A stretch of 50,284 nucleotides of DNA. Source: Blastococcus tunisiensis (GTDB taxonomy: Bacteria > Actinomycetota > Actinomycetes > Mycobacteriales > Geodermatophilaceae). Every line of letters starts with the position of its first letter. Position 1 is the first letter of the stretch. Shown piece after piece: positions 3,326 through 44,818 of this stretch. The stretch covers positions 1 to 50,284 of the forward strand of contig NZ_FOND01000028.1 of assembly GCF_900112815.1 (NCBI RefSeq), read 5' to 3'. Made by a program: the position numbers and the translations under genes. The notes beneath the pieces are model-generated. The model made no database searches. It had not been told where the DNA came from and worked only from the letters and a program-made list of their open reading frames with translations.

Positions 3326-3718
3326 GTGTCGGAGTCCGCACCCGACGGCGGCGTCTACGAGTGGTACCAGCGCGGTAGCCAACTCCTGCGCGAGGGCCAC
3401 CCCGCCGCAGCCGCCACGCTCCTGGGCCGCGCCTCGGCGACGGAACCGGACTCGCGCAGCATCCTGGAGGCGCTGGCGCGCGCACAGTACGACGCGGGCC
3501 GCTACGAGGAGGCCGTCATCAGCTTCACCAGGCTCGCATCCACCAGTCCCACCGACGACTACGCGCACTTCGGCCTCGGGCTGGCCGCCAGCCGGGCCGG
3601 GGAACTCCGGCTGGCCGCCGAGCACCTCGCCCTGGCGGTCGCCATGCGTCCCGACCTCGGCCACTACGCGCGGGCGCTGCGCGGGGTCCGGGCCCGGCAG
3701 GCGGCCGGGCCCGCATGA
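3326..3718 (+). CDS. Small tetratricopeptide-repeat protein
   Basis: A 130-residue, almost entirely helical protein with about three TPR-like helix pairs: EWYQRGSQLLREGHPAAAATLLGRAS, then ILEALARAQYDAGRYEEAVISFTRL, then YAHFGLGLAASRAGELRLAAEHLALA. The GTG at 3326 was chosen because AGGGAGG lies eight bases upstream; another in-frame GTG is at 3317. The stop overlaps the next start as ATGA, so it is translationally coupled to the HAD phosphatase and may act with it as an adaptor. There is no signal peptide or membrane segment. Confidence 0.82.
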   Translation: MSESAPDGGVYEWYQRGSQLLREGHPAAAATLLGRASATEPDSRSILEALARAQYDAGRYEEAVISFTRLASTSPTDDYAHFGLGLAASRAGELRLAAEHLALAVAMRPDLGHYARALRGVRARQAAGPA

Positions 3719-20952: not shown

Positions 20953-20953
<1 letters not shown>

Positions 20954-21537
20954 TGCCCCACGAGTTCCGGGTGCTCGCCAGCGAGCCCGTCTACGAGGGG
21001 CGGGTCATCGCGCTGCGCCGGGACACCGTGGCCATGCCGGGGGGCGGGGACAGCGTCCGCGAGGTCGTGTCCCACCCCGGGGCCGTCGCCGTCGTGGCGC
21101 TGGACGACGAGGACCGCGTCGTCCTGCTCCGCCAGTACCGCCACCCGGTCGGCCGGCACCTCTGGGAGCTGCCGGCCGGGCTGCGCGACGCCGACGGGGA
21201 GCCGCCGCTGGAGACGGCGAAGCGCGAGCTGGCCGAGGAGGTCATGCTGCGCGCGGACCGCTGGTCGTTGCTGACCGAGGTCTACAACTCGCCGGGATTC
21301 TGCGACGAGCTGGTGCTGGTGTACCTCGCCGAGGGGCTGGCCGAGGTGGCCCGCCCCGACGGCTTCGTCGTGGAGCACGAGGAGCGGGACATGACCGTCG
21401 AGCGGGTCCCGCTCGCCGACGCGGTCCAGCGGGTGTTCGACGGGGACATCCGCAACTCCTCCGCCGTCACCGGGATCCTGGCCGCGGCCCAGGTCCGCAG
21501 CGGATCCCCGCGGGTGCGCCCGGCCGACGCGAGCTGA
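20953..21537 (+). CDS. NUDIX hydrolase, ADP-ribose pyrophosphatase type
   Basis: A 194-residue enzyme. The Nudix box at about 76-99 contains G-x5-E and RELAEEVML, so the catalytic R-E-x-x-E-E core is intact. The box glycine (EExG) is replaced by Met. VVLLRQYRHPVGRHLWELPAG before it is typical of ADP-ribose pyrophosphatases, as is NSPGFCDELVLVYLAEGL after it. It would hydrolyse ADP-ribose to AMP and ribose 5-phosphate. It is coupled to pyrG as Rv1700 is to Rv1699. After its stop the GC content drops visibly, marking the start of an accessory segment. Confidence 0.86.
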
Positions 21538-21683
21538 GCTGTTCGCCACCCGTCAGCTCTGGGGATCGGTCGCAGGCGCAGGCGAGCGCTGAACTTCGGG
21601 TGATTCCCATCCTGGCGGTGTGGGCGAGGGCATTGGTGTTGAGGAAGACAGTTGTGTAGCTGCCGAAGTGGCAGGCTGAGGGG

Positions 21684-22607
21684 ATGGTGAGAATCGGGGC
21701 AGTGAAACTGCCCGCGAGCAAGAAGAAGCTCTCCGAGCTAGGCCAGCGGCTGGCTTCCGAGACCCTCCTTCCCGGTGACCAGGAGCTTTATGTCGCTCTC
21801 CTTGACACCTATGACCGGGTGCAGCAGGCGACTAGAACGGTCATCGAAGGTGTCGACTGGGGTCCCTTGCTCAGTGGTCCCCTTGACGTGACCGGGCGCA
21901 CGAAAACGCTGGACACGCTTGTCCAGAAGCTCAGACGGTCGCCCGCAACGAAGCTTCCCTACGTCAGGGACATCGCTGGGGTTCGGGTGGTCGGAGATTT
22001 CCCGTTGGTCGTGCAAACTGCACTCGCCACCAGGTTGCTCACGGCCTTCGACGAGCCAGACGGAGTCCTCATCGATCGTGTCGCGCAGCCCGTCTCCGGC
22101 TATCGGGCGATTCATATCGTCGTCCGAATCGACGGAATTCCGGTTGAGGTGCAGATTCGCACTCGCCTGCAGCACGTGTGGGCTGAAATCTACGAGCGTG
22201 TGGCTGACCGCTGGGGTCGACAGATCAGATATGGGGACCCGCCGGACCCTGAGCCGCTTCCGCGCGAGGACGGTCTAACCCGGCAAGAAATCGTCGGCTT
22301 CTTGCAGAGACTCTCGCTCGAAGAGATCGCTGAATGCGAGCGCGCCGGCATCCTGTCATTCGCAGTCTCCGAGGCCCTCCGCCCCGGCAGTGTCGGTGCG
22401 GCAGTTCGGCCCGTCCTAGGTCTTGAGTCCGACCTCGAGAAGTTGGCGGAGGACCGGCTGACGGAGTGGCGGACTACGTCATCCGAGGTCGTCGACCGAG
22501 TGCAGGAGGTCGGAGCGGCTCTCGAGGACACCCTGCTCAAGGTGGGGGAGTTGCTGGACGAAGAAGAACCAGACCACGAAATTGCGTCTAGCCTGGAGGG
22601 ACCATGA
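21684..22607 (+). CDS. RelA/SpoT-domain nucleotide (p)ppGpp synthetase-like protein
   Basis: A 307-residue protein with an intact-looking synthetase domain and no HD hydrolase, TGS or ACT domain. Visible motifs: GRTK (71-74), VRDIAGVRV (94-102), GYRAIH (139-144), VEVQIRT with the catalytic Glu (154-160) and HVWAE (164-168). After it comes a ~110-residue acidic helical C-terminal region. It is in the size range of single-domain alarmone synthetases, which include housekeeping SAS and toxic toxSAS enzymes. Codons ending in A or T (CTA, GAA, TTT, TAT) are much commoner than in neighbours, suggesting transfer. It overlaps a small gene as ATGA. The ATG sits directly after gagggg, so GTG at 21702 is an alternative start. 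Confidence 0.85.
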   Translation: MVRIGAVKLPASKKKLSELGQRLASETLLPGDQELYVALLDTYDRVQQATRTVIEGVDWGPLLSGPLDVTGRTKTLDTLVQKLRRSPATKLPYVRDIAGVRVVGDFPLVVQTALATRLLTAFDEPDGVLIDRVAQPVSGYRAIHIVVRIDGIPVEVQIRTRLQHVWAEIYERVADRWGRQIRYGDPPDPEPLPREDGLTRQEIVGFLQRLSLEEIAECERAGILSFAVSEALRPGSVGAAVRPVLGLESDLEKLAEDRLTEWRTTSSEVVDRVQEVGAALEDTLLKVGELLDEEEPDHEIASSLEGP

Positions 22608-22864
22608 GCAGCTTCCTGATCCGCTACGACCGCCGTACTGGCGCCGTCGACGTCACCGAGTACCAGGGGGAACGCGGCCGGGTGATGGCGCTTGCGGGTC
22701 GGGTTGAGGCTGAACTCAACCGTGACGGACGGGATCTGGAGGTTGTCGTTCTGTCTGCGGGCTCCCTCGAGGAGCTCAAGCGCACGCACGGCCGCTACTT
22801 TCGCTCAGCTCGTGAACTGATCGCAGGCCTCACCGAAGGCAGCTCTCCGGTTCGAACAGCGTAA
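22604..22864 (+). CDS. Small unknown partner of the RelA/SpoT-domain gene
   Basis: An 86-residue protein I do not recognise. It starts with a strand-rich segment (SSFLIRYDRRTGAVDVTEYQ), then helix (GRVMALAGRVEAELNR), strand (LEVVVLSAGS) and helix (LEELKRTHGRYF), a compact alpha/beta pattern without catalytic motifs. Its ATG overlaps the upstream stop as ATGA, so it is made with the synthetase. The size and coupling fit an antitoxin or a regulatory subunit; neither is shown by sequence. Third-base A/T use is also above that of the flanking genes. Confidence 0.75.
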   Translation: MSSFLIRYDRRTGAVDVTEYQGERGRVMALAGRVEAELNRDGRDLEVVVLSAGSLEELKRTHGRYFRSARELIAGLTEGSSPVRTA

Positions 22865-22906
22865 TGACTACGGCTGAAACCGATGAGCGCGCAGCGCTCC
22901 AGCTAG

Positions 22907-22920
22907 CGATCAGCTGATCG
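22907..22920. promoter_or_regulatory. 14-bp perfect palindrome downstream of the RelA module
   Basis: CGATCAGCTGATCG is a perfect palindrome 42 bases after the small partner's stop, in the non-coding tail of the accessory segment. It could be an operator, a weak transcript end or an insertion-related site; no T tract follows. Confidence 0.3.
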
Positions 22921-23015
22921 GACTGCTCGGCTGGGGGTGTGAGCTAGAGGGCATGTGATCGGTCAGCGTTGGGGCGCCTGGCCGTTGCACGAGCGATCCC
23001 TCGGCTGGGCTGTCG

Positions 23016-23651
23016 TCAGGAGCCGCATTTAGCTCGCGTGGGCCCGTCGCCGGGAAGCCGTAGGCCGAGCCGGTGCAGCTCCACGGCCGCCAGTGCACGC
23101 ACGGCGGCCGGGTCGCCGGCGTGCCAGGCCGCCCCCGTGCCGGCCGGTAGCGCGGCGAGCCGGGGGAGTGGCGCGGTGGCGAGCGCCCGGGCCGCGAGCA
23201 GGTGCAGGTCGGGTGTCCCGTCCAGCAGCGTCCGCGCGGCGGTCGCCTCCTGCACCCAGCCCAGTCGCCACGGCAGCCAGCGCAGCAGCGCCCAGCCGAC
23301 CGGCAGGGCCACCAGGACGACGGCCAGGACCGCGGCGAGCGTGCCGACGGCGTCCTGCGCGGCCTGCCCGGCGCCCGACACCGACGCCCCCGCGTCGGCC
23401 AGGGCGTCGAAGGGCGCGGAGAGCTCGTCGCCCACCAGCGGCACGTCCCGGGCGGCGCCCGACGCCGACCCCATGTTCCCGGCCACCGACCGGCCCAGGT
23501 CCTCGACCGCCAGGCCCGGCGCGGCGAGCACGAGCACCGCGCCGTGGACCGCGCGGGCGACCAGGACCCAGAGGAGCACCCAGGCCAGCAGGCCGGCGTC
23601 GGCAGCCACCTGGCGGGTGCGCTGGGCCGGCGGGTGCGCGTAGAGCTGCAT
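23016..23651 (-). CDS. Putative membrane protein
   Basis: A 211-residue protein with two membrane segments, about 14-40 ([26 protein letters not shown]) and 100-122 ([22 protein letters not shown]). A loop of about 60 residues outside lies between them, and the ~85-residue C-terminal cytoplasmic part is Ala/Leu-rich. No family is recognised. The ATG at 23651 begins MQLYAHPP. The last residues (RAKCGS) come from less GC-rich DNA at the edge of the RelA segment, so the C-terminus may have been altered by the insertion. It is divergent from ald. Confidence 0.7.
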
Positions 23652-44731: not shown

Positions 44732-44805
<74 letters not shown>

Positions 44806-44818
44806 CAGAGCAGGGCCA

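Follow-up and report, generated by a model that had tools for sequence, protein, structure and literature searches.

In a 50,284-nucleotide stretch of the Blastococcus tunisiensis genome (contig NZ_FOND01000028.1, positions 1 to 50,284; hereafter the window), two overlapping plus-strand genes very probably form an unfused, PhRel:ATphRel-type toxin-antitoxin module with a toxic small alarmone synthetase (toxSAS), acquired horizontally between a NUDIX hydrolase gene and a minus-strand gene on a GC-rich chromosome. The toxin gene (21684..22607, plus strand) encodes 307 aa and is assigned to the PhRel branch by its matches to PF04607, PDC-S33 and phrog_4773, its likeness to gp29 of phage Phrann, and its place in our tree. 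The antitoxin gene (22604..22864, plus strand) encodes 86 aa and is assigned to the ATphRel type by its match to phrog_22117, its likeness to Phrann gp30, and its match to the C-terminal part of PDC-S33. The toxin stop codon and the partner's start codon share the plus-strand ATGA at 22604..22607, a stop-start coupling that an earlier reading made from the letters alone (the sequence-only reading) had pointed out and that can be read directly in the sequence. We prefer this assignment because the genes are homologous to the Phrann pair and to the two halves of fused CapRel proteins, because the pair is sporadic and non-native in composition, and because relatives have the same site without the pair. 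A toxSAS toxin with a neutraliser had already been proposed in the sequence-only reading, and the homology of both genes to PhRel:ATphRel, the PhRel-branch placement, the co-occurrence of the two genes and their foreign composition all argue for that proposal. The pair is one more instance of a system already described, not a new kind, and the known picture of toxSAS systems is unchanged by it; it adds a chromosomal pair of a type best known from a mycobacteriophage, with pair-less sites in the same genus.

Relationship to PhRel and CapRel systems

When phage records were searched with tblastn, Mycobacterium phage Phrann was the first row for both proteins. The toxin matched gp29 (PhRel) with 41.9% identity over residues 12-183 (E 1e-29; 14 phage records matched), and the partner matched the neighbouring gp30 (ATphRel) with 41.2% identity over 95% of its length (E 6e-5; 5 phage records matched). 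As in the window, the Phrann genes are separate, with the toxin first and the antitoxin directly behind, and gp30 and the window partner both carry THxRYF. In contrast, the Phrann pair is phage-borne, whereas the window pair lies in a chromosome contig between the NUDIX gene and a conserved gene; 7 bases separate gp29 and gp30, whereas the window genes overlap by ATGA; and the window toxin falls outside the Phrann subclade and belongs to a different one on the PhRel branch. The same two-gene order was found in phage WST1, corynephage IME1320_01, an Arthrobacter plasmid, and a Pseudarthrobacter plasmid in which the partner gene is readable though unannotated.

Two of these mobile-element relatives deserve a separate remark. 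On the plasmid of Pseudarthrobacter psychrotolerans (L008, 1-3582; G and L numbers are our handles for genomes and loci), the PhRel-type pair, with its unannotated antitoxin at about 3361-3582, has genes for TIR-domain and caspase-family proteins and for recombinases in its vicinity, surroundings that look defence-like. In phage Squirty, gp29 (L009, 2456-3374) starts out like Phrann gp29 but departs from it further along, and the next gene bears no likeness to gp30; judged from its sequence, it appears to be a mosaic or truncated toxin gene.

The PADLOC profile PDC-S33 matched the toxin at 1.6e-18 (profile positions 6-181 of 349) and the partner at 2.4e-5 (265-340 of 349). CapRelSJ46 matches this profile at near full length (7e-87, residues 11-370 of 373), and PDC-S33 is therefore in effect the fused CapRel family; a literature search on the name PDC-S33 found no paper. 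At E <= 1, seven of the nine partners of alignment A1 matched PDC-S33, and Phrann gp30 gave no match to it. The toxin also matched phrog_4773 (2.7e-24), and an hhalign comparison of the partner family with the antitoxin C-termini of fused CapRels gave a probability of 94.9 and an E value of 4.7e-8. Fused CapRels (CapRelSJ46; PDC-S33, phrog_4773) thus resemble the two window proteins in having an N-terminal toxSYNTH domain and a C-terminal antitoxin domain, but they are single polypeptides where the window has two open reading frames with an ATGA overlap, and they carry YPNYF where the window partner carries HGRYF. Membership of the pair in the fused CapRel group is ruled out by the two reading frames and by the exclusion of the toxin from the seven-row CapRel branch of the tree (100/100).

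That tree was built from 41 rows and 229 columns, comprising 40 of the 58 toxin and Rel rows plus G252; G069, six rows resembling small alarmone synthetases (SAS) and 11 long Rel rows were left out, and no FaRel or Tas1 row was present. The window toxin groups with G012 (support 96/86), then with G133 and G099 (96/89), and then with G010 (94/91). This five-row subclade sits inside a 15-row PhRel branch together with the Phrann-type toxins (94/93), in which the order of the three subclades is not resolved. Seven CapRel-type rows form the separate branch from which the window is excluded. The PhRel and CapRel branches join weakly (88/77), together with the unplaced long rows G204 and L016. The remaining SAS-like rows fall elsewhere in the tree, as do six long Rel rows. 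The motif R-T-x-x-Q-x-x-W-A was present in all 22 rows of the PhRel and CapRel branches and in L016 and absent from 16 other SAS-like and long rows, while no motif was read in G204 and L119. Housekeeping SASs (RelQ/RelP) share the catalytic core and fold of the window toxin, but 10 of the 12 SAS-like rows of the class carry RT-x-A-M-D-F-W-A at the place of the toxin's RT-x-x-Q-x-x-W-A.

The toxin itself keeps the synthetase motifs GRTK (71-74), VRDIAGVRV, GYRAIH, VEVQIRT and HVWAE. RelA_SpoT (PF04607, 7.1e-13) was the only Pfam match at E <= 1, and no hydrolase or regulatory domain was detected at that threshold, just as the sequence-only reading had described. The protein consists of N-terminal helices, the RelA_SpoT domain at residues 71-168, and C-terminal helices within 200-293, and its structure model has a predicted local distance difference test score (pLDDT) of 90.6. 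Its start is ambiguous (ATG 21684, GTG 21687 or GTG 21702), and relatives start near an LPxSK motif. In an alignment, the toxin's R72, R101 and G-loop Y140 take the positions of R79, R116 and Y155 in CapRelSJ46, and every row of that alignment, long Rels included, has these three residues. A toxin alignment, A5, comprised 37 of the 42 toxins. Foldseek ranked CapRel first for the toxin model (E 1e-8), but with a root-mean-square deviation (rmsd) of about 20, and in VIA CapRel (15.1 over 219 residues) was tied with SAS1 (16.0 over 178). By score alone, the toxin is no nearer to CapRel than to a housekeeping SAS, and the comparison of predicted folds does not separate it from a housekeeping synthetase.

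The partner and its HxxYF motif

AlphaFold models the partner with the strand/helix order E-E-H-E-H-H and a mean pLDDT of 90.8, which makes the label "alpha/beta" given to it earlier the right one. The domain is expected to be pseudo-zinc-finger-like. No Pfam family matched the partner above cut-off, and sequence searches of the PDB with the partner alone or with a nine-row profile retrieved no relevant chain. The partner did match phrog_22117 (3.8e-14), as does Phrann gp30 (3.1e-38), and because of this match and that to PDC-S33 we place it in the ATphRel / CapRel antitoxin family. The idea of an undescribed partner family, raised in the sequence-only reading, is thereby ruled out: the partner belongs to PHROG 22117, the family of Phrann gp30.

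The first match of the partner model in VIA, though a tied one, was ATfaRel2 (8pu2), with an rmsd of 2.1 over 57 residues at 9% identity, the match spanning partner residues 1..67 on ATfaRel2 0..56. If this alignment is ungapped at that end, partner H62 and Y65 would fall on ATfaRel2 Y51 and Y54. FaRel2:ATfaRel2 of Coprobacillus sp. D7 is likewise a bipartite toxSAS toxin-antitoxin system; besides the low identity, it differs in the topology of ATfaRel2, which passages of PMC11782079 take to hint at a circular permutation with respect to the CapRel domain. The comparison of modelled structures is not decisive for the partner.

In the profile comparison, residues T61-H62-G-R-Y65-F66 of the partner sit at the place of the CapRel YXXY motif, HGRYF aligning with Y352-P-N-Y355-F, and the model has a three-residue helical turn at 63-65. 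A check for a YXXY-like motif therefore found HGRY at the aligned position, not YXXY; Phrann gp30 has HSRY, so the variant fits an ATphRel. The first nine partners, a set assembled without regard to the motif, all share H62, R64, Y65 and F66. When the closest toxins were used to scan GTDB contigs, 139 relatives were found, the first row being Geodermatophilus sp. TF02-6. Among the best 80 of these 139, 46 had a separate downstream partner with [T/S]H-x-[R/K]-[Y/F]-F, 4 had a separate match with another motif, 13 were fused, and 17 had no partner at E < 1; these proportions are not frequencies in nature, because the scan patterns favour close relatives. The distance between toxin and partner was -10 to +62 bases in 41 of the 46 relatives with the H motif and 419-495 in the other five. 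In alignment A4 (P0002 and 40 of these 46 partners), T61, H62, R64 and F66 never vary and Y65 hardly does, a constancy that is partly circular because the partners had been chosen for the motif. Exceptions are THPKYV in L149 and THPIYF in L170. In G252 and G311, where the toxins are on the CapRel branch, the separate partners read THGHYF, and the histidine therefore follows the separate state and not the PhRel branch.

It is possible, and we advance this only tentatively, that separate antitoxins plug the donor site through His-x-x-Tyr-Phe ([T/S]H-x-R-Y-F), in contrast to Y/F-P-N-Y-F in fused CapRels and YXXY in ATfaRel2. If so, HxxYF would be a distinct chemical version of the lock, tied to acting in trans and possibly to another kind of trigger, and the window pair would represent it on a chromosome. 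As a variant of YXXY, it offers a natural means of probing how the antitoxin blocks the donor site. No discussion of an HxxY variant was found in passages of the main text of PMC9712102 and PMC11782079 (figures and supplements aside) or among the results of one literature search, and others may have seen it, because PMC9712102 shows an alignment with Phrann's antitoxin.

Distribution, mechanism and competing explanations

A close toxin homologue (E below 1e-50) is present in three of 61 genomes, its own included, and the partner occurs in the same three; 30 other genomes of the 61 gave toxin matches only at E 2.8e-6 or weaker. Across 394 genomes of the class, the partner profile matched in 13, with a toxin-profile match directly beside it in 10. 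A search for the 86-residue family next to RelA/SpoT genes, which the sequence-only reading had recommended, thus finds the two adjoining in most cases. The remaining three are G092, which has a partner with no detectable toxin, and G228 and G321, whose weak partner matches (E 5.2e-4 and 9.0e-4) have no toxin beside them. Related-locus searches of genome contigs with the toxin as lone query and of viral contigs with alignment A3 returned nothing. We would like to note that the locus in G092 (L087, 1501-1743) and that in G069 (L086) have similar upstream genes; the former holds the antitoxin only and the latter a toxin in two frames, and this sequence comparison seems to suggest that the toxin decays first.

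The composition of the pair is foreign to its surroundings. GC content is 0.631 in the 1484 bases between the NUDIX and next-gene alignment ends and 0.754 and 0.800 in the 500-base flanks, and GC at third codon positions is 0.72 in the toxin and 0.71 in the partner as against 0.93-0.99 in five flanking genes (NUDIX, the minus-strand gene, ald, xerD and parA; pyrG was left out). The earlier description of a lower-GC insert with unlike codon use is borne out by these values.

PhRel, CapRel, FaRel2 and PhRel2 pyrophosphorylate the CCA end of tRNA with ATP as donor (passages of PMC11559606). In CapRelSJ46, as passages of PMC9712102 describe it, a pseudo-zinc-finger domain holds the toxin off, its YXXY motif (Y352, Y355) inserting between R79 and R116 in the ATP site, and a phage capsid protein releases it; the same passages state that fused CapRels are the rule except in Actinobacteria and that the unfused form is the commonest form of PhRel. 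ATfaRel2 blocks the ATP donor site in trans (passages of PMC11782079), and Phrann gp29/gp30 protect against phage Tweety and others (passages of PMC9262239). By comparison with these relatives, the window synthetase would use ATP to pyrophosphorylate uncharged tRNA at its 3'-CCA end, and translation would stop. The partner, made right behind the toxin from the same operon, would bind it, with HxxYF plugging the ATP donor site near toxin R72 and R101. A phage component or another trigger might then disturb this contact, and the freed toxin would abort the infection. A role of the window pair in anti-phage defence is by the same analogy plausible.

The sequence-only reading had offered, as an alternative, a housekeeping SAS (RelQ/RelP-like) that makes (p)ppGpp, with the 86-residue protein as its regulatory subunit. 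The shared catalytic core and fold agree with such a role, but we consider it highly improbable: the tree puts the toxin with PhRel and apart from the SAS-like rows of the class, a close homologue in only three of the 61 genomes is not the broad vertical presence expected of a housekeeping gene, the composition is foreign, the partner is homologous to a known antitoxin, and the genome already has a long Rel, which is its only other RelA_SpoT match. We also think it very unlikely that the synthetase acts like FaRel or Tas1, depleting ATP by making (pp)pApp and leaving tRNA unmodified. The toxin lies on the PhRel branch, albeit of a tree with no FaRel or Tas1 rows, and its partner is of the donor-site-blocking kind, which passages of PMC11782079 report with tRNA-targeting toxSASs, FaRel and Tas1 being blocked at the acceptor site instead. 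The neighbours of the pair, NUDIX and a gene with no Pfam match, include no recognised alarmone hydrolase.

An unlikely explanation, though one with some evidence in its favour, is that the pair is a decayed or silent passenger, with intact genes that have lost their activity or are no longer under selection. In G069 and G237 the related copies seem to have a broken frame or to be truncated, G092 has kept the antitoxin only, and the distribution is sporadic. Nevertheless, both frames in the window are intact and overlapping, and R72, R101, Y140 and the HxxYF motif have all been kept.

The insertion site and its neighbours

The left neighbour of the module is the NUDIX hydrolase gene (20953..21537, plus strand; PF00293, 7.3e-16), which is conserved in synteny and has 76.6-85.9% identity in 14 genus relatives. 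The right neighbour, recognised by synteny, is a conserved gene on the minus strand (about 23016..23651), for which Pfam gave no match at E <= 0.01. Downstream of the pair, the order is this minus-strand gene, then ald, then xerD; the conserved NUDIX gene upstream was correctly named by the sequence-only reading, but ald is not the direct downstream neighbour. Of the 16 genus genomes, counting that of the window, 15 have a strong NUDIX orthologue and G007 has only a weak match. The comparison of related genomes for an empty site between NUDIX and ald, also suggested earlier, found the site without the pair in all 14 other genomes with the orthologue. Measured between alignment ends, the gap after NUDIX is 14-180 bp in nine of them and 583-1502 bp in five, which hold other DNA. 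The extra DNA in the window, absent at the same place in these relatives by the gap comparison, is approximately 21538..23015, bounded by the NUDIX stop and the end of the minus-strand gene.

The five longer gaps (L063, L064, L065, L066 and L067) hold differing DNA: a WYL-type regulator and a glyoxalase-like frame in G011 and G003 (by Pfam in G011 and by sequence likeness in G003), a major facilitator superfamily transporter in G013, a SnoaL-like protein in G012, and, in the 699-bp gap of G008, two tested frames with no Pfam match. Because these five relatives have different DNA there, the interval from NUDIX to the minus-strand gene looks permissive for insertion. The minus-strand gene was not found in G005, matched over 34 residues in G004, and is cut by the contig end in G001. 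The other two pairs in the genus lie elsewhere, that of G010 at 4.51 Mb (NUDIX at 0.90 Mb) and that of G012 on another contig. Together with the sites lacking the pair, this makes the window pair look like an insertion at a permissive site. The copy in G012 (L078, 7098-8519) is within 1 kb of a gene that, by eye, resembles a serine recombinase.

No sigma-70-type promoter was matched within 21400-23200, no convincing direct repeats were found at the insert ends, and the sole tRNA of the window is at 44732-44806. A 20-nt imperfect inverted repeat (85%; 21516-21535 and 23031-23050) lies nearly exactly at both edges of the insert; it may be due to chance in GC-rich DNA, or it may be a former palindrome between convergent genes.
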